Shown here: positions 1,715 through 18,621 of the stretch, piece by piece
How positions within the stretch are numbered: position 1 is the first letter of the stretch
Layout of the letters: the number at the start of each line of letters is the position of its first letter
The notes under the pieces: generated by a model
Seen by the model: only the letters and a program-made list of their open reading frames with translations
What the model was told of the DNA's origin: nothing
The model's database searches: none
Program-made: the position numbers and the translations under genes
Source of the DNA: a virus
Strand: one strand, 5' to 3'
DNA: 23,705 nucleotides
Virus record (IMG/VR): IMGVR_UViG_3300042691_008999
Coordinates: 1 to 23,705 of that record

Positions 1715-1945
1715 TTATGCTGAAAAATCTATACCAAATGTTTTTTTAGCATCGTACCCCTTACTGTCCAAATATGCTTTTACTGCGGCACGTTTTTCTG
1801 GAGTAGCATTATCATATGCTTTCTTAACTTCGCCTTTTGCTAGACTTGGATATTGAAAGGCCATATCTATGTCAGATCTTTCTTTAGCAGTCAGTTGTAC
1901 TGGAGTTTTAGCGGTAGTACTAGCAGTAGGATTATTAGCTGTTAC
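1715..1945 (-). CDS. Putative -1 frameshift extension (76 aa) of the gene ending at 1942
   Basis: This frame has no start codon of its own near its beginning. It is open from the A10 run through 76 codons to TAA at 1715-1717. It begins VTANNPTASTTAKTPVQLTA, a Thr/Ala/Pro-rich linker like the rest of the upstream protein. It then gives a compact charged domain (KERSDIDMAFQYPSLAKGEV, KKAYDNATPEKRAAVKAYLD, SKGYDAKKTFGIDFSA). The composition continues that of the 0-frame product, and the frame stops at a terminator. It is most simply translated as a fusion, by ribosomal -1 shift at A AAA AAG (1951-1945) or RNA polymerase slippage on A10. A one-base sequencing or assembly error in the homopolymer is the competing explanation. 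Confidence 0.7.
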   Translation of the reverse strand, partial: VTANNPTASTTAKTPVQLTAKERSDIDMAFQYPSLAKGEVKKAYDNATPEKRAAVKAYLDSKGYDAKKTFGIDFSA

Positions 1946-3024
1946 TTTTTTTTTTCGGCAGCTTTTGCGTCTTGCTCTGCTCGATTTTGTAATCCAGTAC
2001 CGGTATATACATCTCTTAATCTGCTAGAGCTTGAAGTTGCCTTTCCTTCTGGTTTTCCGCTTTGTGAAACTGTGTTTGCATTATCTGCGGATCCTGCTCC
2101 GCCTTGATACTTGTCACGTAGTCGTTTTAATTCATCTGGAACCGGTGCATCTTTAATAGGATCAAGTTCTTTAAATAACGCATCGATCTCTGCTTTGAGT
2201 TTATCTTCTTCTGAAGGTTGAGCAGGTGCTGGAGCAGGTGCTGGAGCTGGTGCTGGAGCTGGAGCAGGTGCTACATTAGGACCAGTTGTCGGTGGATTAA
2301 CAGGTGCTGTTACTTCCGGCTTACCACTTTGATCTGTTTCATCATCACCAGAAACTAAATCAGATATAGCACTACCTGCCTTGTATAACCCGACTCCTGC
2401 AACAATTCCAAGTGCAGCCGCCAGTTTTGGATTTCGTTGCACAAATCTTTTTAATACAGCACCCCGTTGTGATAGTTTTGCTTTAGGTGTTGTTCCAGGT
2501 TTAGGTGCTTCACCAGCTTTAGGTGTTGTTCCAGGTTTAGGTGCTTCACCAGCTTTAGGTGTTGTTCCAGGTTTTGGTGCTTCTCCTGCCTTTGGTGTGG
2601 TTGTATTAGGAGCAGTTGTATTAGGTGATGTATTAGTTCTTGGTGTGGTTGTATTAGGAGCAGTTGTATTAGTTCTTGGAACAGCAGTTGGTGCGTTATA
2701 TGTTGTTTGTCCGTAATTACCTTGTCTATAGTTTGCGTTTGGTGTAGCAGTTGATGTTGTAGCAGTTCCAGAAGATTTTTGTAATTTTACAAAATCGTCT
2801 GTGCTTATAACTTTATTTGTTTGTCTATTAAGATAGTTATTACCTACTTTTTCCCAAGTCTGACCATTTATGTTTGCTACCCTCGGTAACTGTGCGGCTA
2901 GTCTTTGTGCGGCAGTTGGCCCAACCATCTGTTGAAATACTTTATCTGCCGCTTTCTTTTTGGCAGCTTCGGAAACTGATGTGTCTGTTTCTACAATGTT
3001 AATATAATCTCTTAAATTTTTCAT
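1942..3024 (-). CDS. Pro/Thr-rich repeat protein, putative internal virion protein (0-frame product)
   Basis: About 360 residues. I choose the start at 3024 (MKNLRDYINIVETD) because AAGGAA lies 6-7 nt upstream; an in-frame ATG at 3042 overlaps the previous gene and has no ribosome binding site. The N-terminus ends in I-V-E at 10-12, like a T4 capsid-targeting peptide. A helical region follows, then a Thr/Asn/Pro linker with three 12-residue GEAPKPGTTPKA repeats, a short hydrophobic stretch (LAAALGIVAGVGLYKAGSAI), a Pro-Ala run, and a charged region with RLRDKYQGG and RLRDVYTGTG. It ends AEKKK-stop inside an A10 run, and a -1 shift would add 76 residues. The function is unknown. Low-complexity linkers joining small modules suit a virion or internal head protein. 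Confidence 0.7.
   Translation of the reverse strand: MKNLRDYINIVETDTSVSEAAKKKAADKVFQQMVGPTAAQRLAAQLPRVANINGQTWEKVGNNYLNRQTNKVISTDDFVKLQKSSGTATTSTATPNANYRQGNYGQTTYNAPTAVPRTNTTAPNTTTPRTNTSPNTTAPNTTTPKAGEAPKPGTTPKAGEAPKPGTTPKAGEAPKPGTTPKAKLSQRGAVLKRFVQRNPKLAAALGIVAGVGLYKAGSAISDLVSGDDETDQSGKPEVTAPVNPPTTGPNVAPAPAPAPAPAPAPAPAQPSEEDKLKAEIDALFKELDPIKDAPVPDELKRLRDKYQGGAGSADNANTVSQSGKPEGKATSSSSRLRDVYTGTGLQNRAEQDAKAAEKKK
1945..1956 (-). promoter_or_regulatory. A10 slippery site with A AAA AAG heptamer before TAA
   Basis: The minus-strand frame reads GAA AAA AAA AAG TAA. This contains the classic X XXY YYZ heptamer A AAA AAG (as in E. coli dnaX) in the correct phase, directly followed by the stop. Shifting -1 gives GTA ACA GCT and 76 open codons. 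Only a weak downstream stem is visible (GTACT pairing with AGTAC 14 nt apart). Confidence 0.6.
2223..2273. repeat. Pro-Ala coding repeat
   Basis: Tandem GGTGCTGGAGCA-like units encode an alternating Pro-Ala run on the minus strand, a stiff linker within the protein ending at 1942. Confidence 0.8.
2481..2588. repeat. Three 36-bp tandem repeats inside a coding region
   Basis: Copies at 2481-2516 and 2517-2552 are identical; the copy at 2553-2588 differs at three bases. Each encodes 12 residues (GEAPKPGTTPKA, minus strand). A second imperfect repeat follows at about 2592-2683, encoding NTTTP/NTTAP units. The near-identity suggests recent slippage or unequal recombination. Confidence 0.9.
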
Positions 3025-3034
3025 CGATATTTCC

Positions 3035-4282
3035 TTAAGCACTCATGTAGTATTGTTGTATAGCGGCTTTAGTAGGTTCGTCTATAATTCCAGTAACTTG
3101 GATTTCAGCGCCAGCTTTGATTAGATCTTGTTGTATAGCAGTAATAGTTAACTTGCCTAACACACCATCAACACCGTCACCGCCTGGGCCAGTAGTACCT
3201 AGATTATATCCATCTGCTTTTAGTTGTGCTTGTAATTCTGCTACATCTGGATCTGAGTTTCTAGGCTGTGCTTTTGCAACTTTTTTTCCGCCTGCTTTAC
3301 CGGTATTTTGTACTTTTGATCCTGCTGGTGGTTTTCCTTGTTGTGTAGCTTGATACACTTTTTCAACAATAGCATCAACAATTGAATTAACATCATCACC
3401 TAGAGCATAGCTTGCCGCTAGTCCGCCAACTCCACCAGCTACGAATCCGACTATCGCACCTGGTCCAGTAATAGCACCTGCTATTGCCGCACCGATAATA
3501 GCACCGGCCCAGAATAAACCAACTTGTGCAACAACCCGACTAATAATTTTAGAAACTTCTGCTTTGTAGCGACTTTCTGGTAAGTCTGTTGGCAGAGCTT
3601 TAATTTCTTGCCAAGCGTCCCAGGCTTCCCATAGTACCATAACAGGTAGTGCTACTTTGCTTAATACTTTTCCGCCAAAGCCTTTAAGTGACTGCCAAAC
3701 ACCAGTTGCCGGCGCCGCCGGAACTTGCATAGTAGCCGCTGCCGCCGCTTCGAGCAAGGTGTAATTATAATTCTCCATTAGATCTTTAACAATAACATTC
3801 TCTGTTAAATCTTGTTTGGTTACGCTTTCAACAATGTAATAGGCTAACGACGACTCTTGAACTGGTGCAGGTTGTGCTGAAGATTTTTTCAACTCTAACC
3901 ATTTGTCGATAAGTCCTTCTAATTTTTTTAGTTTTTCTAAAATAGCAGGATCTAGCAATAGTTTAGGATCAATAGGTTCGCCTAGTTTTACACCAATCTT
4001 AGCTAGTAAGTTTTTAACATGAGTTAATTCACCAAATACATCGCTAAAGTCATCTAGAATATCTGCATCAACTTCTGGATAGATTCTTCTGATTTCTTGC
4101 CACTGACGTGCATCTTTAACATCGCCGATAGCCGCATAAACTGCTTCCTCGTCGGTGCCTAGACCTGTAACTGCTTTTCTAATTTGTGCGGCAATTTTTG
4201 ATGATGCATCAAGTGTATCCGAAGGTGCTTCAGACAGTCTCTCGATTTCATCCATTTTTTCAATTAATGATTTCAAGTCCAT
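3035..4282 (-). CDS. Annexin-like / glycine-rich membrane / peptidoglycan-binding protein, putative internal virion protein
   Basis: 415 residues with several modules. Residues 1-18 end in L-S-E (16-18), a possible prohead-protease site. Residues about 29-85 resemble an annexin repeat: IRKAVTGLGTDEEAVYAAIG with GLGTDEE at 40-46, then ADILDDFSDVFGE. A helical charged region covers 86-135. Residues 159-180 hold further L-x-E sites (LTE, LME, LLE) before an Ala run. Residues 253-291 are hydrophobic and Gly/Ala-rich (GLFWAGAIIGAAIAGAITGP...), suited to membrane insertion. Residues 344-412 look like a PG_binding_1 domain (VAELQAQLKADGYN, GVDGVLGKLTITAIQQ, TGIIDEPTKAAIQQ). The combination suggests a protein delivered with the DNA that meets the envelope. 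It follows the 107-aa gene by 1 nt. The domain calls are by eye; the annexin match is the least certain. Confidence 0.7.
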   Translation of the reverse strand: MDLKSLIEKMDEIERLSEAPSDTLDASSKIAAQIRKAVTGLGTDEEAVYAAIGDVKDARQWQEIRRIYPEVDADILDDFSDVFGELTHVKNLLAKIGVKLGEPIDPKLLLDPAILEKLKKLEGLIDKWLELKKSSAQPAPVQESSLAYYIVESVTKQDLTENVIVKDLMENYNYTLLEAAAAATMQVPAAPATGVWQSLKGFGGKVLSKVALPVMVLWEAWDAWQEIKALPTDLPESRYKAEVSKIISRVVAQVGLFWAGAIIGAAIAGAITGPGAIVGFVAGGVGGLAASYALGDDVNSIVDAIVEKVYQATQQGKPPAGSKVQNTGKAGGKKVAKAQPRNSDPDVAELQAQLKADGYNLGTTGPGGDGVDGVLGKLTITAIQQDLIKAGAEIQVTGIIDEPTKAAIQQYYMSA

Positions 4283-4283
4283 A

Positions 4284-4607
4284 TTAGATCTCTTTATTAC
4301 GATTTTCCATTACTTTGTCTGCAACCTTACGTGCATACATTTTTAGTTGTTCTTTCCGTTCTTGCTCTTTTTGTGAAAAAAGCTCTTCTGCTTCAACAAA
4401 ATATTTTTTAATCACAGAGTCAGTTTTTGGAGTATCAACAACTTTTTCGTTTTGATAGTGTTGCATTGCCATTTGTACAGGAAGGCTAACTTTATGTGGA
4501 CTAGCACCTTCCTTTACGATTTGTACAAATTTTTTCATGTCATCAGATCCTTCTACAGGCTTATTTGAAGCACCGTCTAATGCCTGCAGAATTTTCTTCA
4601 TGTCCAT
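4284..4607 (-). CDS. Conserved phage protein of unknown function (107 aa)
   Basis: Charged, mostly helical protein beginning MDMKKILQALDGASNKPVEG. Its middle, SPHKVSLPVQMAMQHYQ, looks like a conserved block, and the C-terminal half is Lys/Glu-rich (EAEELFSQKEQERKEQLKMY). There is no signal peptide, membrane segment or known catalytic motif. It sits between two putative internal virion proteins, 5 nt after one and 1 nt before the next, so it is probably made late with them. It has no clear L-x-E N-terminal peptide. I recall similar N-termini in T4-like aquatic phages but can give no function. Confidence 0.75.
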   Translation of the reverse strand: MDMKKILQALDGASNKPVEGSDDMKKFVQIVKEGASPHKVSLPVQMAMQHYQNEKVVDTPKTDSVIKKYFVEAEELFSQKEQERKEQLKMYARKVADKVMENRNKEI

Positions 4608-4612
4608 ACTGA

Positions 4613-5875
4613 TTACCCGTTTAATCGTGTTAAGAACTGTTTCATACGGTCAAGTTCGGTTGACTCGTTTAAAGAATCAGTTTTTTCTTCTTCGCATTCA
4701 CAAGGATCCTTGTGGCATGCATCGCATTCTTGTGATTCTTCAATTTGAAAATCTTCTGGATTTAAATTCTCTAAATTTAGATCTTCTAGTTCTTCTGCAA
4801 CTTCTTCTTTGCTAGGTGCTAGTTCTTCTAAACTCTCTTTAAGAGATTTAGCTTTTGATTTCCATTGTGTACTAGCATCTTCTTTTACTTTTTTATCTTT
4901 TTTTGCAAACGGATTTTTCTTCTTGTCAGCAACTGCCTTTTTCATCGGCTCCTTTTTGTTGCCGTCTTTGTCCATGTCTAAAAAGTCTGGCTTGGCTGCT
5001 TCATCAACTTTCTTTTCTTTGCCCATAGCCTTCTTGATAGCTTTGTCTTTATTGTCCATGTACTCTTTCGAGTCTGGTTCGTCCTTGCCATCGTGGTCCA
5101 TATCACCTTTATCAGATTCGTTAACTTGCTTACCGTCGACATAACGCTTAACTGAACCTGGGTGTTTCTTTTCATAGGCCTTAGATGCTTTCTCTTGTTC
5201 TTTGTCTTTGGCTTTTTGTTCACGACGTTCTGCACCAGTCATTGCAGTTTTCTTTTCTTTCTTAGGTGGAACATAATCCTCATCGTCTTCTGGTTTAGCA
5301 TCACGCTTGTGAACTAGGCCAGTTGAAGTTTTTGTAGCAGTTCCGTGCTGTGTTTTATATGTGTCACCAACTTTTGATTTTTCGTCAAATGCTTCTTCCA
5401 TGCTACCACATTCTTTCATACCATGCACTGGACACTCTGTACCTTCTGCTGTATGGTTGCAGGATTTAGCTTCGTCGACTTTCTTTTCTTTTTTGTCTTT
5501 CTTGATCTTCTCAGCCTGAGCTTTTTTGAGTTCAGCTACTTTGGCTTTTGCTTCTGTAAGTTTAGTTAGGATCTCACGCTTGCGATCTTCGCTCATAACT
5601 TCAGCGTTGGCAAGATGTTCACCGTACTCACTGAACTTCATTTCATATTCTAAGTAGTGATAAACAGATGCGATATAATCCGCGGCTTTGGTAATTTTAG
5701 CCTGAACCCAACTTTCTAGTTGAGTTGAATCATCCATACGCTTGAATAGTTTAAGCGAATAGTTTGCTAACTTGTATAAGTCAGCTTTAGCCATCGCTCC
5801 TTCGCGGTCGTTATTTGCTTCGGCTCCTGCGTTGTGAGCGTCTGGATTAAAATCTGGTTGCATGTCGTCGTGCAT
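4613..5875 (-). CDS. Lys/Glu-rich protein with EF-hand-like loops and Cys clusters, putative internal head protein
   Basis: 420 residues. Residues about 23-78 form a compact block (NDREGAMAKADLYKLANYSL, LESWVQAKITKAADYIASVY, HYLEYEM) that I recognise as recurrent in T4-like aquatic phages. The rest is mostly Lys/Glu/Asp-rich and probably disordered. It contains two Asp loops like calcium-binding EF-hand or dockerin loops (DMDHDGKDEPD at 258-268, DMDKDGNKKEP at 300-310). It also has Cys clusters (C139, C148, C156; C384, C387, C392, C394). It ends ELDRMKQFLTRLNG. A good ribosome binding site (GGAG, 8 nt) and a GATAAATA late-type box lie upstream. The composition suits a DNA-neutralising internal protein or scaffold-like core component; the function is not established. 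Confidence 0.75.
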   Translation of the reverse strand: MHDDMQPDFNPDAHNAGAEANNDREGAMAKADLYKLANYSLKLFKRMDDSTQLESWVQAKITKAADYIASVYHYLEYEMKFSEYGEHLANAEVMSEDRKREILTKLTEAKAKVAELKKAQAEKIKKDKKEKKVDEAKSCNHTAEGTECPVHGMKECGSMEEAFDEKSKVGDTYKTQHGTATKTSTGLVHKRDAKPEDDEDYVPPKKEKKTAMTGAERREQKAKDKEQEKASKAYEKKHPGSVKRYVDGKQVNESDKGDMDHDGKDEPDSKEYMDNKDKAIKKAMGKEKKVDEAAKPDFLDMDKDGNKKEPMKKAVADKKKNPFAKKDKKVKEDASTQWKSKAKSLKESLEELAPSKEEVAEELEDLNLENLNPEDFQIEESQECDACHKDPCECEEEKTDSLNESTELDRMKQFLTRLNG

Positions 5876-5901
5876 GGTAAGAACTCCGTAATCTTATGTT
5901 A

Positions 5902-5909
5902 TATTTATC
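5902..5909 (-). promoter_or_regulatory. T4-late-type promoter box GATAAATA
   Basis: GATAAATA on the minus strand, 26 nt before the 420-aa gene, differs from the T4 late -10 element TATAAATA at one base. It overlaps the last codons of the preceding gene. Confidence 0.5.
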
Positions 5910-6687
5910 GTTTGATGCTTCCGCCTGTTAGAAGATTAGCCTTCATATCTAGGGCGTTTTTAGCTGTACCGTCTTTGTTTTTAGGCTGTTTAGGCGGTTT
6001 ATTTTTATAAACTGCTCCAACTGCTACATTACCTGCACTAGTAGAACCTGCTGTTGCGGTTTCTGCTAGATCATCTTCTGCTTTTTTAGTAAGCATGATC
6101 TTACCTTGCAGTTCTGGTTTATTTTTTAGGATAGCAAGGCCGTAATTATTAGCACCTTTTTTCCAGTCAAATACTTTTGGCTCACCTTTGCTCTTTAAAA
6201 TTTTTCCGTTAATCTTTAAGTACCAAGGCCCGCGATCTAAGTCGCGTTGTTTTTGTACTTGTTGCTGATAATATTCTTCTTCGTCGCCTAGTTCGTGCTC
6301 CATTTCGCGGCGTTTGAAGTCACGCTTTTCCCGATCCATTTGACGTTGCTGATCACGCTCGTAGTCCATTGGATTATAGTAACTGCTTTTTCTTCCGTAC
6401 ATTTCTTCTACACTTTCTTTGGGAACACAATTAGGAACAGTACGTCCACCTTTTTTCTTAGTACCTACAGGCTTGTAGCCCTTCCAACAGGGATTGTCTT
6501 TAGGATCACGAAGACCTTCATCCATTGGAACTTCTTGTTTCTTATGTTTGAAGTCGCCTTGCTTTTCAGCTTTCTTTTTATCCTTGTGTGCTCCAGACCC
6601 GCTAGTCTGCTGATTTTTAGCAACAAAGTTTCTAGGTTTGGGTGCTTCTTGTTTTTTAGCTTCGGATAATATTTCGTATGCTTTCAT
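5905..6687 (-). CDS. Conserved charged protein, putative internal head protein (260 aa)
   Basis: Begins MKAYEILSEAKKQ, a close look-alike of the T4 internal-protein targeting peptide ending in L-S-E (7-9). A Lys-rich region follows, then a two-Cys block DNPCWKGYKPVGTKKKGG...VPNCVPKE (64-90, C67 and C87) that I recall from many aquatic T4-like phages. Next is a highly charged Arg/Glu/Gln helix (about 105-150), a small folded block GPWYLKINGKILKSKGEP...FDWKKGANNYGLAILKNKPE (153-192), and a C-terminal TATAGSTSAGNVAVGAV stretch ending GGSIKR. There is no enzyme motif. An AGGA ribosome binding site precedes ATG. I infer packaging in the head from the N-terminus and neighbours. Confidence 0.75.
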   Translation of the reverse strand: MKAYEILSEAKKQEAPKPRNFVAKNQQTSGSGAHKDKKKAEKQGDFKHKKQEVPMDEGLRDPKDNPCWKGYKPVGTKKKGGRTVPNCVPKESVEEMYGRKSSYYNPMDYERDQQRQMDREKRDFKRREMEHELGDEEEYYQQQVQKQRDLDRGPWYLKINGKILKSKGEPKVFDWKKGANNYGLAILKNKPELQGKIMLTKKAEDDLAETATAGSTSAGNVAVGAVYKNKPPKQPKNKDGTAKNALDMKANLLTGGSIKR

Positions 6688-6688
6688 T

Positions 6689-6907
6689 TTATTTTCCTAC
6701 AGGTTTCTCGCCCGTTAAGTAAGGCTTACTAAACCATAACTGGAACCATTCCGGTGTTCCTGGTTTAATATTATGTTTTTTCATTAGTTCGCCTTTTTCG
6801 TTTCCGGTAATGCTGATATTACTTCCTTGATTAATAGAATATTCACTAAGTCCTCGAAACTTATTGCCTATCCCAGCTAACTGTTTTATTTGATCAAGTT
6901 CATTCAT
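6689..6907 (-). CDS. Conserved small phage protein (72 aa)
   Basis: Begins MNELDQIKQLAGIGNKFRGL and has L-S-E at 20-22, a possible prohead-protease site. The C-terminal block HNIKPGTPEWFQLWFSKPYL is rich in aromatic residues and looks conserved. The N-terminal ELDQIKQL resembles ELDRMKQF at the C-terminus of the 420-aa protein encoded at 4613-5875. The gene is spaced 1 nt from each neighbour and has no obvious ribosome binding site, so it may depend on translational coupling. Function unknown. Confidence 0.7.
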   Translation of the reverse strand: MNELDQIKQLAGIGNKFRGLSEYSINQGSNISITGNEKGELMKKHNIKPGTPEWFQLWFSKPYLTGEKPVGK

Positions 6908-6908
6908 A

Positions 6909-7343
6909 TTATTTCATAGATGCTCTTAACATCCAACTGTGTTTGCGATGTGCATCCATACGTCCTGCGATAAAATCACTTAGACCGTGTTCACCTAAAT
7001 CTTCGCTCATATCAAAAACTAATTTAAGTAGCTTGACCATTTTTTCGCTATCTTCGTGCAATTCTGCAAGCATCTGTTCTGCTGGTAGCATTTGTGTTTC
7101 ATCATCAACTTGCGTTAGCATCGAAAATCTTTGCAAACTAGCAGGCGTATAAGTTCCAGCCTTGCGTATATTTTCTGCAAAATCGTCGATACTATCATAG
7201 ACTTCTTCATAGATTTTTCCAAACAACTCATGATATTGAAAGAAGTTTGGTCCTTCTACGTTCCAATGAAAATTCTGTGCTTTTAAAGCAAAGGCAAATT
7301 CGCTAGCAAATGCCGTCTTTAGTGATAAATGAAATCTTTCCAC
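6909..7343 (-). CDS. dps: Dps-family mini-ferritin
   Basis: 144 residues, slightly shorter than cellular Dps and without the long Lys-rich N-terminal tail. The Dps core is clear: ALKAQNFHWNVEGPNFFQYH, ELFGKIYEEVYDSIDDFAEN, IRKAG. The dinuclear iron site ligands H26, H38, D53 and E57 have the family spacing (+12, +15, +4), so ferroxidase activity is expected. Dps proteins form 12-subunit shells that oxidise and store iron with peroxide and may coat DNA. The start is GTG at 7343, with GGAG 7 nt upstream; an overlapping ATG is out of frame. It lies among putative internal virion proteins, which raises the possibility of packaging, though it has no targeting peptide itself. The family call is firm; the role in infection is open. 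Confidence 0.93.
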   Translation of the reverse strand: MERFHLSLKTAFASEFAFALKAQNFHWNVEGPNFFQYHELFGKIYEEVYDSIDDFAENIRKAGTYTPASLQRFSMLTQVDDETQMLPAEQMLAELHEDSEKMVKLLKLVFDMSEDLGEHGLSDFIAGRMDAHRKHSWMLRASMK

Positions 7344-7344
7344 A

Positions 7345-8484
7345 TTATACTCCGTACTTGTTCTTTTTAGGTTTAGCCACAGGGCTAACTGTATTTGTTG
7401 ACTCTAATTCTTGGCTACGCATGTCACCGTGATTTACATCTTGATGACTAGCACCAGCAGCCTTAAAGGCTTTTTTTAATATTTTAGCATCTTGTTCTGA
7501 ATACGGAAATGCTACTTTAAATTTTCCAACCCAGCTCTTAGGATCGATATCAGGATCGTTTTCTCCGTCGGTCATAGCTGCCGCCATCATAGCACGGTAC
7601 TGTACATAATCAGCATTCCATCTCTCAGCATCGGCAAATTTATAGACACCTCTAGTAGACTGCTGTTGCCTTTTAGTAATTTTTCCTTCTTTTGCTTCTT
7701 GTAGTTCTTGTTCAATTACCTTAATTTGTTCTGCAAGTTTAAAAGCACGTAAGTTCTTACCTGGAGTTGATGCATCAACATCAGCTGTAGTATTTTGTGC
7801 AGTAATCCTACCTACACCAAATTCTTCTGCAACCTCTGGTTGTTTCTTTTTGGCCTTGGCAGCTTCTTTTTCAGCCTTAAGTCTTTCTTTTTCTGCGGCT
7901 TGATGTAAGTAGGGTGTTAGATAATGTTTAACAACTTCAAAGAACGACTTCCCGCCAATCGGTGTGTTAGCAGGCACACCAGCTGCCTGTTCAAATGCCT
8001 GCGGATCGTTATTAGCAACAGCCGCACGTAATTCTGTAGCACTACTAATGCGAGGTGCTTCTTCCCATACAATATCTTTAAATCGGTAAAAACCGTGTGG
8101 GCCTTCTACACCGTTAGATTTTTGTAATCCTGCAACAAATACTTTTGCATCAGCCGGATCAGTTACAACGTGTAGGGTAACAGGTCCGTGTTTTTTATAC
8201 ACATGTGCGGCTAATGTCCACCAACTTTGTTCGGCAACGAGATGTTCTTTGACATCTGGCCAAATTGCCTGCATGGCTGCAATTTTAACTTTAAATGGTA
8301 AAGGGTCTTTAGGACCTTCTGTACTTTGATTTGTACCAACGTACCAAGCACTAAATCCAGAAGCTAATTCCCAAGCGGCTTTATGCCCTTGATGAGGAGG
8401 ATTAAAACGGCCAAAAATGATTGCAACATCTTCGACTGATTCACCTGCTTCATATATATTTTCGTATAGTTCTCTTAATTTCAT
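7345..8484 (-). CDS. HxGH adenylyltransferase (NMNAT/cytidylyltransferase-like) with phage C-terminal module
   Basis: 379 residues. After a short N-terminal peptide ending I-Y-E (10-12) comes a nucleotidyltransferase domain: VAIIFGRFNPPHQGH (20-34, HxGH H31/H34) and ISSATELR (146-153), equivalent to the ISSTxxR signature. This pattern suits nicotinamide-mononucleotide adenylyltransferases; substrates with the same fold include pantetheine-phosphate and CTP-linked alcohols, so specificity is not proven. A Lys/Ala/Glu coiled region (195-220) leads to a separate C-terminal module (about 265-365: KRQQQSTRGVYKFADAERW, PDIDPKSWVGKFKVAFPY, GDMRSQELESTN) that I recall in many aquatic phage proteins. 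The start overlaps the stop of the ligase-like gene by 4 nt, so the two should be translated together. Confidence 0.85.
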   Translation of the reverse strand: MKLRELYENIYEAGESVEDVAIIFGRFNPPHQGHKAAWELASGFSAWYVGTNQSTEGPKDPLPFKVKIAAMQAIWPDVKEHLVAEQSWWTLAAHVYKKHGPVTLHVVTDPADAKVFVAGLQKSNGVEGPHGFYRFKDIVWEEAPRISSATELRAAVANNDPQAFEQAAGVPANTPIGGKSFFEVVKHYLTPYLHQAAEKERLKAEKEAAKAKKKQPEVAEEFGVGRITAQNTTADVDASTPGKNLRAFKLAEQIKVIEQELQEAKEGKITKRQQQSTRGVYKFADAERWNADYVQYRAMMAAAMTDGENDPDIDPKSWVGKFKVAFPYSEQDAKILKKAFKAAGASHQDVNHGDMRSQELESTNTVSPVAKPKKNKYGV

Positions 8485-9698
8485 ACTCTAGTTGCTCCCG
8501 GAGCCCACGATGTTGGTACTAATTTTATATTACCATATTTATGCCCTGGCTGTGCATAGCGAACGTAGCCTTCGCCTTCGGTGTCCCATATCTCAGGCCG
8601 ACTCTGCGATTTATAAGTAGCTACTACTTTATCTTTCATGTCGCGAATATCTTTGATCAAATCAAATATAGCATCAAGTCCGCCGGGCTGTTGTTTAATC
8701 ATATCGATGATATGCTGTTGTTTCTTTTGGCTTACGCCTTTTTGTTGCATCCAGTTCATAAAAGTTTCGCCAGTAATACTACGGAAGTTTTGTTTGCCAG
8801 CCGCATGTAAGTTACTCATCTGATTAAAGAACGGATAAAATATTCCGTTCTTATCAGGATCAGGTAGGCTAGCTAAGAAAGCATCTACTTTTGGACCTAA
8901 TTTAGTAGCACGTTGTATTGCGATATCGATTTCTTTCGTATCCATACCGCTACCTTCACTAGTATAGATCGGACCTTGAACAATTAGTCCGGCTGTTTGA
9001 TTAAACATTGAAAAGTCATCCATTGGTTTCTGCGCTCTGTCAGGAGCACCGAACTGATCAAACGATCCATGTCCTACGACCATTACTCTTGCCTTGCTAA
9101 TACGCTGTCCTAGTTCACTTGTGGCATCAACGTGGTAACAGGTCTTTGATTTAGGATTAGGACAGAAAGTCCATATTCCGTTAGGATATTCTTTAGTCTT
9201 TTCTAAACGTTTGTCTAGGCTAGGATCAACTCCAAATAAACTATCAGCATATACAAAGCCTACAAAGTCTTTAGGTGTAGCCGAATCAAATAATGGATAT
9301 AGATTGGCAAAATTCTTAGCAAACGACTGCCTTGCTTTTTGGTCTTCGGGTGTTTTAGGTTTTCCGCTTTGATTAGCAATAAAATCATATACACCTTCTG
9401 GAGTATCTGATTTTACACCTCTGCTCCACTGATTGTGTCCTGCAAGGATTAAGGGACCGCCCTTAGTTTCTCTACCCCAATAGACTTGCGGGTTACCATC
9501 CCATTTGCCGCGTACTGTAGTACCACCTGCTTTTTCCTGTGCGATTTCTTTAAAATGCTGTAATGCTTCCAGCGTACCTTGAGATCCTTTAAAGAATACT
9601 AGATGTTCTGGATGATTAAATGCCCGACCGTATTTTTCCATACTGTCGTCAGCAGGTCCAGATTTATCCTCAAAATAAAATAGTTCTCTAAGTAACAC
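8481..9698 (-). CDS. DNA/RNA ligase-like covalent nucleotidyltransferase (DUF6267-like)
   Basis: 405 residues. Motif I-like VRGKWDGNPQVYWGR has the candidate nucleotidyl-lysine K65 in KxDG. FVGFVYADSLFG fits a motif III position, EGYVRY (376-381) fits motif IV, and YGNIKLVP (K392) fits motif V. This is the order of the ligase/mRNA-capping superfamily. The middle is not like classical ligases, and I recall such phage proteins classed as an uncharacterised family (DUF6267). The substrate is unknown. It starts at GTG 9698 with AAGGA 6 nt upstream, 2 nt after the previous stop. The N-terminus MLLRELFYFE resembles the targeting peptides of its neighbours, though without a strict L-x-E. It overlaps the adenylyltransferase gene by 4 nt. 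Confidence 0.75.
   Translation of the reverse strand: MLLRELFYFEDKSGPADDSMEKYGRAFNHPEHLVFFKGSQGTLEALQHFKEIAQEKAGGTTVRGKWDGNPQVYWGRETKGGPLILAGHNQWSRGVKSDTPEGVYDFIANQSGKPKTPEDQKARQSFAKNFANLYPLFDSATPKDFVGFVYADSLFGVDPSLDKRLEKTKEYPNGIWTFCPNPKSKTCYHVDATSELGQRISKARVMVVGHGSFDQFGAPDRAQKPMDDFSMFNQTAGLIVQGPIYTSEGSGMDTKEIDIAIQRATKLGPKVDAFLASLPDPDKNGIFYPFFNQMSNLHAAGKQNFRSITGETFMNWMQQKGVSQKKQQHIIDMIKQQPGGLDAIFDLIKDIRDMKDKVVATYKSQSRPEIWDTEGEGYVRYAQPGHKYGNIKLVPTSWAPGATRV
8536..8543 (-). promoter_or_regulatory. Possible late-type box CATAAATA
   Basis: CATAAATA on the minus strand lies 51 nt before the adenylyltransferase start, within the ligase-like gene. It is one base from the T4 late box, but it also encodes part of HKYGNI, so chance is likely. 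Confidence 0.25.
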
Positions 9699-9700
9699 AG

Positions 9701-10075
9701 TTAGTCCTTATATTTGCCTTCTTGGAAATTTTTACAAAATTCTTCATGCATTTTTTGGCAAACTTCGTTACAAGTTTGTTCTTCTATTGTATGAGGAAGC
9801 TGTCTAATAGGAAATTCTTTTATATAATTTTTATATGCTTGTTCAACAACTTTTTTAAACACATTAGGGGATGGTTCTTTATTAGAGTTCATAGACTCTA
9901 CGCAGTTGCTAATAACTGGGTATAAGTGCCTACGATAAAGGTCGTCATTATTGTTTAGATAAAAAACTAAATCTTCAACTAAATCATAGGCGATATCTGT
10001 TCGTCCGTCTTCGGTTTTAGTAATAAAGTTAAGATCGTTAAACTTTTTGCCTTCTAAAAGCTCTCTAATACGCAT
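9701..10075 (-). CDS. Conserved phage protein (124 aa)
   Basis: Begins MRIRELLEGKKF with L-L-E at 6-8, again like a capsid-targeting peptide. The body is soluble and mostly helical, with blocks IAYDLVEDLVFYLNNNDDLY, RRHLYPVISNCVES, IKEFPIRQLPHTI and CNEVCQKMHEEFCKNFQEGK. The last has three regularly spaced cysteines. I recall proteins with the same architecture in T4-like cyanophages, without a known function. It is the first gene of the cluster behind the best late-type promoter box and is followed by the ligase-like gene after 2 nt. Confidence 0.8.
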   Translation of the reverse strand: MRIRELLEGKKFNDLNFITKTEDGRTDIAYDLVEDLVFYLNNNDDLYRRHLYPVISNCVESMNSNKEPSPNVFKKVVEQAYKNYIKEFPIRQLPHTIEEQTCNEVCQKMHEEFCKNFQEGKYKD

Positions 10076-10103
10076 TTTTTATTCCGTTTTTAAAAGTCGC
10101 ATG

Positions 10104-10125
10104 AATACTACGCGAATGTAGTATT
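10104..10125. repeat. 8-bp inverted repeat overlapping the late-type promoter
   Basis: AATACTAC (10104-10111) and GTAGTATT (10118-10125) are perfect inverted arms around a 6-nt loop. One arm shares bases with the GATAAATA box, so the dyad could be an operator or a 5' stem of the transcript. Confidence 0.6.
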
Positions 10126-10129
10126 TATC
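10122..10129 (-). promoter_or_regulatory. T4-late-type promoter box GATAAATA
   Basis: GATAAATAC on the minus strand lies 46 nt before the 124-aa gene, in one of the few true intergenic gaps. It differs by one base from the T4 late box TATAAATA. It is well placed to drive the whole 10075-1715 cluster. Confidence 0.6.
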
Positions 10130-10147
10130 GCAAACGGGGTCTTTAGA

Positions 10148-10804
10148 TTAAGGTTTGATTATGCGCTCTATTTTGTTTATAGAGCTTCCGAGGTGCATTT
10201 TAGCCATCAGCAGGTTGTTTTCACCCGTGATATAAAAGAAAGTACCACCCCAACTACGATCTCTGCTCAGTTCTTTTGCACAACTTTTAGTAAGTTTAAC
10301 CTTGGGATTTTTTTCAGCCCAACTAACAAATGCCGAATGTTCCTGAGTAGTTTTGCCCATAGTAACGCGAAATTCATAATTAATCTTGGGCATAATGATA
10401 GTATTACTATCAAGCTGTGTTTTATCAGGGGGAACGCAGACATACTTAATTCGTTCTTCGTCAATTTTAATAATGCTATTAATATCAGATTCGGAATTAG
10501 AGTAAACACTAATCCAAGGAGTTTCTACCCTTACATCAATGTCTTTGAGTTTTTTAAGTTGCTTTTGTAGCTTAAATGCGTAGTCTAAATCTTCTTGGGT
10601 TTTAATACCTGATGGTCTTCTACCGCCCCATGTCATTGTAGCCGCATTAGAAGAATTTAAATTAATCTTCTTAAGGTGGTCTAATGCTGTGTCCATATCC
10701 CCACCACGAAACCAGCTAGCACCAGCACAAGTTATTACTAACTTGTACTGATATTTGCTTTTAAATAATCTCGTGGTTGTTTTATACAACATTTTGCTCA
10801 GCAT
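10148..10804 (-). CDS. Unknown protein (218 aa) at the end of the chaperone operon
   Basis: Soluble protein; not recognised. Visible blocks are YKLVITCAGASWFRGGDMDT, ATMTWGGRRPSGIKTQEDL, a beta-rich middle (DIDVRVETPWISVYSNSES), and a C-terminus SRDRSWGGTFFYITGENNLL that looks like a strand pair. The first ATG (10804) lies inside the ClpA-like gene, overlapping its end by 23 nt; a second in-frame ATG is four codons in. Neither has a ribosome binding site, so translation probably depends on coupling to ClpA-like translation. No signal peptide or membrane segment. It could be a substrate adaptor for the unfoldase, but only position suggests that. Confidence 0.75.
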   Translation of the reverse strand: MLSKMLYKTTTRLFKSKYQYKLVITCAGASWFRGGDMDTALDHLKKINLNSSNAATMTWGGRRPSGIKTQEDLDYAFKLQKQLKKLKDIDVRVETPWISVYSNSESDINSIIKIDEERIKYVCVPPDKTQLDSNTIIMPKINYEFRVTMGKTTQEHSAFVSWAEKNPKVKLTKSCAKELSRDRSWGGTFFYITGENNLLMAKMHLGSSINKIERIIKP

Positions 10805-16664: not shown

Positions 16665-17291
16665 TTAGATTCCTAAAACATGTAATGCGTGGTTATAATG
16701 CTTGATGCGATCTTCTAAACCAATAGTACCGCCGTTAATGCGTTTTGTTAGTGTTAGGATATCGCCTTTATCGGCCCACTGGTTTAAATTATTTGTTTCC
16801 CAGAACCAGCAAGCTGATTGTACAGCACCTTCAAATGTTTCTAGATATTCGGCTGCTTCTTCTACAGGAATTTCTAAGCTGGCAGCAAACCATGTATAGT
16901 TTTCTTTACCAGTTAATTGAATTAGACCACGACCGCAGTAACGGAAGCCATCACCGCTTGCTTCGTCACCGTTGCCCATACGATTACCGTAGATTCTATT
17001 AGCAATCTTAGCTGGTTGCTTTTCGTATGCTCGTGCTTCGTCTAGTGTTTTAAAGTATTTAGGAAAAACTTTTACTAAACTTTCTGCTTTATAATTTAAG
17101 TTTTCTTTTAAGAATTTAAACCCGCCTGACTCATGAGCACACTGGGCAATGAAGGCCGCAACACGTTGTGGAGTATTAATTTCATATTCAGGAAGAATTT
17201 GAGATACTGCATCATACCATTGATCGACATACGGATTGCCTTTGATCATTTCTGCTAAGTGTTCTTTTTTAAAGTCGAATTTAAAACTCAT
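16665..17291 (-). CDS. GH19-type endolysin (chitinase-class lysozyme)
   Basis: 208 residues. Core of the GH19 family: FIAQCAHESGGFKFLKENLN with candidate catalytic E54 and E63, KIANRIYGNRMGNGDE, FRYCGRGLIQLTGKENYTWF (117-135), and RINGGTIGLEDRIKHY near the end. In phages this fold cuts peptidoglycan glycan chains during lysis. There is no signal peptide, so export through a holin is expected. The start overlaps the previous stop (TAATG), with GGAG 8 nt upstream. Downstream are the spanin and holin candidates. Confidence 0.94.
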   Translation of the reverse strand: MSFKFDFKKEHLAEMIKGNPYVDQWYDAVSQILPEYEINTPQRVAAFIAQCAHESGGFKFLKENLNYKAESLVKVFPKYFKTLDEARAYEKQPAKIANRIYGNRMGNGDEASGDGFRYCGRGLIQLTGKENYTWFAASLEIPVEEAAEYLETFEGAVQSACWFWETNNLNQWADKGDILTLTKRINGGTIGLEDRIKHYNHALHVLGI

Positions 17292-18019
17292 TATTGTTTC
17301 TCCAAAACTACAGCGTAGTTGCTGTTTTCAAAAATAAAAACATTACCAACCTTGGTAATGTTGTAGTTACCAATGTACTTGGTTAAAAACATAACCTCAG
17401 CCATGTCTTTGTTTTCTAAAACGATAGGGCCTTTAACTGCTTCATAAACATCTTGTTTTGTTCCACTAGTTACAATTTTAAACTTTATAGTGTCGCCGAA
17501 AATTTTCTTAAAACTAATTGATTCGTCTAATAGTTTTATTTCCTCGGCAAAACTGTTAATAAAAAATTCTTGAAAGTTTTCAAGTTTATTTCTTTGAGTA
17601 GATATGCGATATGACTCTTTATCTTTAGGTATAGATGTTTCGAGATTTTCTAGAGTAGCATCTTGACTTTTAAAACTTTTAAAATATCGAAATTTAAAGT
17701 TGTCGATGCCTGTAATTTTTTCTACACCGTCTAAGACTTCTCTAATTTGATCTGCGGCATGTCTTGTTCTTTCAAATTCGACATAGACTTTGTAAGTACC
17801 GTCATCGAGTTCACCTGGACTAACATCTGCATCCAGAACAAAATCGTAACCCATTTCGATAAAGTTTTCTAAATCTTTTGCAGGATCTTCGTGATCGACA
17901 GTAAAAGCGATAACAATAATATCTTCGTCATCTCCGATTTTACTTTTGAAAGAATCAATCTCAACAATTCTGCTGACAAAATTTCTTAGATCGTATTCTC
18001 TTAGGCTTTCGTTAATCAT
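17291..18019 (-). CDS. Conserved phage protein of unknown function (242 aa)
   Basis: Acidic soluble protein, MINESLREYDLRNFVSRIVE at the N-terminus. A repeated alpha/beta layout is suggested by DIIVIAFTVDHEDPAKDLEN, FIEMGYDFVLDADVSPGELD, GTYKVYVEFERT and a C-terminal half FGDTIKFKIVTSGT...VGNVFIFENSNYAVVL. I recall a similar opening and the 'YDFVLDADxSPGE' block in T4-like aquatic phages, always without function. A ribosome binding site AAGGA lies 5 nt before ATG. It follows the 197-aa gene by 8 nt and is probably co-expressed with it. Confidence 0.8.
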   Translation of the reverse strand: MINESLREYDLRNFVSRIVEIDSFKSKIGDDEDIIVIAFTVDHEDPAKDLENFIEMGYDFVLDADVSPGELDDGTYKVYVEFERTRHAADQIREVLDGVEKITGIDNFKFRYFKSFKSQDATLENLETSIPKDKESYRISTQRNKLENFQEFFINSFAEEIKLLDESISFKKIFGDTIKFKIVTSGTKQDVYEAVKGPIVLENKDMAEVMFLTKYIGNYNITKVGNVFIFENSNYAVVLEKQ

Positions 18020-18027
18020 AATATTCC

Positions 18028-18621
18028 TTACGCAGTTGGCATAGGAGCGCCACCTGCCGGTGCTCCAGGAATTCCACCTGCCGGTGCTCCAGGCATTCCA
18101 CCTGCCGCCGGCATTGGTGCAGCCGGCATCGGAGCTGCCATTGCACTAGGAGCCGAACTTCCTGTTTTGTTTTCTTCAGTTGTCTGATGTTCGTTCTTCA
18201 TCTTTTCCATGTATCCTCGATACATATCAAACGCAACTTTTTTAGGCATCTGTATTTCAACAATCCAAATAGGTTTTCGATCTAGTTTACCTTTTTTAGT
18301 TCCAGGACGATAATCGTCAGGACTTTTAATTTCTCTTGGCTCAACTAAGTGACTGCGCTCGTATTTGATCTTGCACCCTAGATCTTGTAATCGTTTAGCG
18401 GCTATTGGATTAGGCATCTTTTCCTTTGGCCACATAAATCCTGCTGTGATCCAATGACGGTCAACCTGTGGGCCGTAGCATAGTTCGCCGTCCTCCCAGT
18501 TTTCGTAGGCATAAATGTCTAGCTCGTCGATAACACGTTCAAAGTCTTTTAGTACAGCAAGACTTGAGTTGTTTTCGTAAAGATCGCTAACGTTCCTAAT
18601 AATGTCTAAAATATCGTACAT
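18028..18621 (-). CDS. Conserved phage protein with Pro/Ala/Gly-rich tail (197 aa)
   Basis: N-terminal 150 residues form a folded domain: MYDILDIIRNVSDLYENNSS, VIDELDIYAYENWEDGELCY, GPQVDRHWITAGFMWPKEKM, KPIWIVEIQMPKKVAFDMYR. I recall this domain from T4-like aquatic phages, function unknown. The last 45 residues are low complexity with AAPMPAAPMPAAGG and GAPAGG units. It is the first gene left of the divergent phoH region and shares a transcript with the next genes. Confidence 0.8.
   Translation of the reverse strand: MYDILDIIRNVSDLYENNSSLAVLKDFERVIDELDIYAYENWEDGELCYGPQVDRHWITAGFMWPKEKMPNPIAAKRLQDLGCKIKYERSHLVEPREIKSPDDYRPGTKKGKLDRKPIWIVEIQMPKKVAFDMYRGYMEKMKNEHQTTEENKTGSSAPSAMAAPMPAAPMPAAGGMPGAPAGGIPGAPAGGAPMPTA
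18050..18115. repeat. Tandem 24-27-bp repeats encoding Gly/Pro/Ala units
   Basis: CCACCTGCCGGTGCTCCAGG recurs and gives GAPAGG repeats in the C-terminal tail of the 197-aa protein. Confidence 0.75.

Follow-up and report, generated by a model that had tools for sequence, protein, structure and literature searches.

A probable T4-type capsid-targeting gene cluster with enzymatic cargo in an uncultured giant T4-like myovirus

Positions 1942-10075 of the virus record IMGVR_UViG_3300042691_008999 (23,705 bases, all of which were analyzed and are called the window below) hold a cluster of tightly packed genes on the minus strand, most of whose larger products begin with a short peptide ending in glutamate. 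The cluster is best explained as a T4-type capsid-targeting system that carries enzymes and relies on gp21-type processing, a reading to which we assign a probability of roughly 0.84. Targeting and cleavage are well supported through homologues and relatives and are predicted by extension for this phage, and injection into the host is likely because of the analogy with T4. The source is a giant T4-like myovirus of a lake-type, uncultured giant-genome clade; nucleotide matching of the window against known phages revealed no close relative. The kind of system is already known from T4; the clade, the tag sequence, the set of enzymatic cargo, and the connection drawn to enzymes in cyanophage virions are new.

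According to the proposed mechanism, each tagged precursor bears a short N-terminal capsid-targeting propeptide, which would dock it to the core of the prohead while the head is being assembled. A gp21-type S77 protease would then cut after the Glu, and the mature protein would stay inside the head. The predicted cargo includes an NMNAT-like cytidylyltransferase, a nucleotidyltransferase with ligase motifs (DUF6267), and a peptidoglycan-binding annexin-like protein; it would probably enter the host alongside the DNA and begin to act immediately.

A short N-terminal peptide ending in [L/I/V/F/Y]-x-E, hereafter the tag, was found in eight of the ten larger open reading frames (ORFs) of the cluster. 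The original prediction had quoted seven such N-termini, among them the looser MLLRELFYFE of the ligase-like protein, and all seven are present on the minus strand; an eighth carrier, protein C with MDMKKILQALDGASNKPVEGSDDMKKFVQIVKE|G, had been missed. As read from these sequences, the consensus is M-[K/R/L]-[I/L]-R-[E/D]-[L/F]-[L/F]-x-E. The genes are as follows.

9701-10075, minus strand: protein H, 124 residues, tagged; peptide MRIRELLE at 10052-10075
8481-9698, minus strand: DUF6267 (PF19782) protein with ligase motifs, 405 residues; peptide MLLRELFYFE at 9669-9698, GTG start at 9698
7345-8484, minus strand: NMNAT-like cytidylyltransferase, 379 residues; peptide MKLRELYENIYE at 8449-8484, variable linker, FGRFNPPHQGH core
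6909-7343, minus strand: Dps/ferritin-like protein; no peptide
6689-6907, minus strand: small protein F; MNELDQIKQLAGIGNKFRGLSE at 6842-6907
5905-6687, minus strand: protein E, tagged, with a DUF7230-type stretch (DNPCW..VPNCVPK); peptide MKAYEILSE at 6661-6687
4613-5875, minus strand: protein D, acidic and lysine-rich, 420 residues; no N-terminal peptide
4284-4607, minus strand: protein C, 107 residues; MDMKKILQALDG...DMKKFVQIVKE|G at 4509-4607
3035-4282, minus strand: protein B, 415 residues, tagged; peptide MDLKSLIEKMDEIERLSE at 4229-4282, annexin-like repeat (residues 31-87), hydrophobic stretch, PG_binding_1
1942-3024, minus strand: protein A, 360 residues, tagged; peptide MKNLRDYINIVE at 2989-3024 (ATG at 3024, Shine-Dalgarno score 6; initiation at GTG 3042, which would lengthen the protein, is unlikely), repetitive Pro/Thr region
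1715-1864, minus strand: small ORF of 49 residues, at one end of the quoted range; no motif

For counting, the motif was scored as [LI]-x-E within residues 3-16. Within the window alone the enrichment was weak (6/10 cluster genes versus 5/24 others, Fisher p = 0.036), and this was resolved by the relatives. Eighty loci were collected from one scan with the DUF6267 protein, and the larger contigs were examined whole. Pooling of seven syntenic contigs gave the motif in 36 of 70 cluster genes and 122 of 911 others (odds ratio 6.8, p ~8e-13, the orthologues not being independent). Family by family, the motif was kept at the N-terminus in 97% of cytidylyltransferases, 94% of DUF6267 proteins, 100% of the family of the gene at 9701, and 83% of that of the gene at 5905; most flanking families had it in 0-24%. 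The percentages for proteins C, E, and F are lower bounds because the simple gene finder called their start codons imperfectly. In protein C the site before.PHKV was L/I/V-x-E in 16 of 16 distinct relatives, with Leu at P3 in 13 and a variable P2.

The N-terminal profile was common to families whose bodies are unrelated. When it was built from three families and applied to the fourth, 100, 89, 80, and 46% of the held-out N-termini scored above the 95th percentile of the background (998 genes). The modest p value inside the window and the 13% rate of the motif outside the cluster would suit an explanation by chance and ordinary homology, in which [LI]-x-E is frequent and families simply conserve their N-termini. 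This explanation is hardly credible, because the profile transfers across unrelated families; moreover, the tag on one and the same enzyme differs between lineages, being RELF-type here and F..FL-x-E in cyanophages, and homologues in other phages lack it.

The protease and its specificity were approached through relatives. A contig carrying the cluster (G015) ends just beyond the portal gene, and this portal, used as a scan query, led to a 356,312-base record (G025) with a syntenic counterpart of the entire region and a DUF6267 homologue (E = 2e-63). About 90 kb from its cluster, G025 encodes the portal, a core protein, a Peptidase_S77 protease (E = 6.5e-27), the scaffold, and the major capsid protein. 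The protease was found in 15 of 17 portal relatives tested. Among 26 distinct major capsid proteins of the G025 group, the cleavage site reads L-x-E|S/T: P3 is Leu and P1 Glu in 26/26, P2 takes nine different residues, and P1' is Ser or Thr. This site agrees with the published gp21 cleavage motif L/I-X-E (PMC9026906), and its conservation indirectly indicates that the clade's protease would cut after L/I-x-E. The original prediction had likened the peptides to T4 capsid-targeting peptides cleaved by gp21, and the likeness held. The clade's gp21 itself starts ...MIVE|S. A small portal-adjacent gene starts MILRELFYIDP, the same type of tag as on the window enzymes; although left out of profile building, it ranked 20th of 998.

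The cytidylyltransferase connects the cluster to virions. Homologues were detected by mass spectrometry in virions of cyanophages S-CREM2, S-SCSM1, and S-SZBM1, according to the published reports (PMC10665884, PMC9602691, PMC9146016), to which the statements on virion content of these phages below also refer. These data give the presence of proteins with unmapped N-termini, and the counts are small. The three enzymes start MKNFSSFLTE|A, MKSFLQFLKE|A, and MRFRQFIIE|A, respectively. Of the nine consecutive genes surrounding the S-SCSM1 cytidylyltransferase, seven are marked as virion proteins. In S-SZBM1 the untagged DUF6267 protein is absent from the virion table, and its tagged neighbor is present. 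The homologue of phage CBB is untagged, its catalytic core running from the first residues (MVYGRFNPVHLGH), and the published CBB virion list contains no ORF from between CBB_38 and CBB_104. The homologue of phage PA5oct lacks an x-x-E peptide, and it alone is unmarked, amid four neighbors that mass spectrometry confirmed. Further S-CREM2 virion enzymes, namely a SAM hydrolase, an APH/ChoK-like kinase, and Cas9, bear FL-x-E-type peptides, in Cas9 at residues 17-25. With a strict FL-x-E-type motif derived from other phages, 6 of 29 non-tail virion proteins of S-CREM2 were positive versus 3 of 165 undetected ones (p = 4e-4); in S-SCSM1 the plain [LI]-x-E was enriched (8/21 versus 28/235, p = 0.004). 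Tag presence goes with virion detection.

Two side observations concern these cyanophages. The S-CREM2 gene at 7704-10313 (L214) encodes a phage protein that is annotated as Cas9, has been reported from virions, and shows FASFMAE|A close to the N-terminus. S-SCSM1 gene 93 (L218, 41626-41835), a virion protein, has a tag-like C-terminal segment (KRTFKEFLEYIE) that recalls the C-terminal processing of T4 Alt.

The N-terminal helices might instead dock the proteins to another phage structure, such as the replisome, the membrane, or the baseplate, the Glu being incidental. Short amphipathic N-terminal helices are common, and AlphaFold2 (AF2) predicted a helix in DUF6267 (residues 3-8) and in protein H (residues 2-7). 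The tag tracks virion detection in cyanophages, however, and the final Glu of the peptide is conserved behind a variable residue, as at the capsid protein cleavage site, so that we regard such docking as very unlikely.

Several points weigh against a capsid-targeting system. The motif [LI]-x-E is common by chance; the flanking family 18028-18621 also has it in 100%; and P3 in DUF6267 and protein C strays from strict L/I. The strict FL-x-E-type motif was not enriched in S-SCSM1 virions (1/21, p = 0.29), the S-CREM2 authors point out that their proteins may have co-purified (PMC10665884), and the available virion proteomics concern homologues in phages outside this clade. A gp21 homologue was found together with the cluster in G025; the window and its 24 nearest contigs, all fragments lacking head genes, had neither gp21 nor gp23, and no relative closer than G025 was shown to combine gp21 with the cluster on a single contig.

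Two proteins of the cluster had been called enzymes. For the cytidylyltransferase this is likely: it scored narrowly above the PF01467 cutoff (21.8 versus 21 bits), matched phrog_3041 (2e-14), and has the HxGH motif in FGRFNPPHQGH. Its alignment starts with a (near-)invariant M-x-L-R-x-L-F-E, continues with 0-25 variable residues, and then enters the catalytic core. The DUF6267 protein matched PF19782 (E = 5.5e-12, 46.2 bits versus a cutoff of 27), with 22 of 22 members above the cutoff. MLLRE.F is invariant in 19 sequences, as is KWDG (65-68), and G375-E376-G377 and K392-V394 follow; the motifs KWDG, EGxV, and K-x-V are ordered as in ligase-type nucleotidyltransferases. In the AF2 model (predicted local distance difference test score, pLDDT, 83) residues 1-14 lie outside the predicted fold with values <50. 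Sequence and fold searches of the PDB returned nothing significant; in the fold search no match reached E < 0.001, with ligases at a probability of ~0.2. The assignment as a ligase is the weaker one, based on motifs with no significant fold match. Searching INPHARED by tblastn gave no match at 1e-3; profile comparison does connect the family to phages Melnitz and C48C1.

In the window and in Melnitz, C48C1, S-SZBM1, and S-PM2, DUF6267 is encoded close to the cytidylyltransferase or directly beside it, and long viral UniProt proteins named cytidyltransferase-like match its fold. From these two observations we infer that the two proteins probably act together; NAD or nucleic-acid end repair are guesses at their role in the host. 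In S-PM2 (L219, 6755-10291), an untagged DUF6267-like N-terminus (KWDGAPA) forms a short gene beside the cytidylyltransferase. That the Dps-like protein is a Dps, as originally predicted, was borne out (PF00210, 1.2e-20; PDB Dps, 3.4e-22). The [LI]-x-E motif occurred in 0 of its 25 nonredundant orthologues; it is untagged, and any part it may have in the system is a supposition.

Even with peptides that genuinely direct targeting and cleavage, the proteins could be factors of the prohead core or of assembly, comparable to T4 gp67/gp68, and could for the most part be degraded or serve morphogenesis only. In favor of this, the MILRELFY peptide also occurs on the small protein whose gene lies between those of the portal and the core protein, protein D has an acidic composition and no tag, and enzymatic domains are absent from B, C, and F. 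We consider this unlikely for the cluster, as the catalytic core of the cytidylyltransferase is intact behind its variable linker and its homologues occur in mature virions; some tagged proteins may nevertheless be core-assembly proteins and not injected cargo. The preferred reading, a targeting system with enzymes as cargo, agrees with the original proposal that the phage packs an enzyme set as far as peptide type, protease specificity, and the three cyanophage virions go; joint action and injection are put forward at the strengths given above.

The remaining cluster proteins were characterized as follows. Protein H has 85 orthologues, with M1, R2, I3, L6, and E8 invariant in 31 aligned sequences, and its AF2 model is all-helical (pLDDT 87.5). 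A relationship of protein H to the small portal-adjacent gene of Melnitz, suggested by phmmer (E = 8e-5, G015 member), was rejected after profile comparison gave a probability of 5.5%. Relatives of protein F have GLTEYS, GLVEYQ, and RLHEY at the same place, a weaker pattern than in the other families. Protein E matched PF23876 slightly under the cutoff (6.4e-6), and N-termini of its relatives include MKITDLDES, MKVTDILSE, and MKIIELLGE. Protein D, conserved in 59 relatives, weakly matched virion protein 92 of S-SCSM1 in a profile comparison (E = 1.3e-4, low complexity) and is possibly a core protein. In protein B, which matched annexin VI (E = 1.7e-5) and PF01471 (4.9e-7), an annexin-like repeat (GLGTDEEAVYAAI) is joined to a hydrophobic stretch and PG_binding_1 behind the tag; its peptidoglycan-binding homologue in G025 bears a different tag, MRAKEFLILE. 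Protein A had no relative among the cluster loci examined.

The closest known parallel is T4, whose IPI-III and Alt share with the cluster a short propeptide ending in L/I-x-E, an S77 prohead protease, and basic or enzymatic cargo, Alt being an ADP-ribosyltransferase (PMC9026906). For T4 IPIII, and for T4 only, the peptide is known to suffice for packaging of a foreign protein and its ejection into the host. The cluster differs from T4 in its RELF/RELL-type peptide and in cargo that is different, more numerous, and gathered in one conserved block. The three cyanophages share the cytidylyltransferase in virions and the N-terminal x-x-E peptides but differ in having F..FL-x-E-type tags and, in S-SZBM1 and likewise S-PM2, an untagged DUF6267. 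Methylophilales phage Melnitz and phage C48C1 (Kyanoviridae) have DUF6267, the cytidylyltransferase, and small tagged genes in the same order, with F..F/YL-x-E-type tags and 21% identity in DUF6267. The ejection proteins of phiKZ/SPN3US likewise belong to giant phages with many head proteins processed after x-x-E, but their motif is S/A-x-E (PMC9026906); phiKZ-type processing with P3 Ser/Ala was rejected, since P3 is Leu in all 26 capsid proteins here.

These comparisons invite a wider idea, offered tentatively and with somewhat more doubt than belief: marine and freshwater T4-like phages might share a general cargo-loading code, in which lineage-specific tags, matched to each lineage's own prohead core and protease, sit on dozens of unrelated proteins. 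Enzymes, among them the NMNAT-like and DUF6267 ligase-like proteins, SAM hydrolase, kinase, and even Cas9, would then be loaded in advance and injected to serve defense, repair, and metabolism in the first minutes. If so, injected content would be readable from sequence, the injected set of a T4-like phage being predictable from N-termini, including many "hypothetical" genes of giant phages that are uncultured. Auxiliary enzymes, NMNAT for example, would then be candidate pre-loaded effectors and not genes expressed during infection. It would offer a mechanism for the recurrence of metabolic enzymes in cyanophage virion proteomes, whose authors, in the accessible parts of their reports, left the route of entry or co-purification open and could not distinguish the enzymes from contamination. 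No paper linking these enzymes to such peptides was found in the open literature. New tag and protease pairs for loading proteins into T4-like capsids would also become available.

Some minor observations were made in G025 and the window. The gp22-like scaffold (L116; G025 80667-81767) starts MLDALKSLFENNVIS, like the RELFENIYE of the cargo, and its end, RRLAGL(K), is similar to the QLAGI of protein F; parts of the scaffold may be mimicked by the cargo. At ~307-335 kb of G025 (L207, L208), a second gene array with starts of MRA[KT]EF[IL].E or similar represents a second tag type in one genome and includes SGNH-hydrolase-like and HAD-phosphatase-like proteins. Finally, two conserved flanking proteins of the window, 17291-18019 (MINESLREYDLRNFVSRIVEID) and 18028-18621 (MYDILDIIRNVSDLYENN), have tag-like starts and are possibly more cargo.

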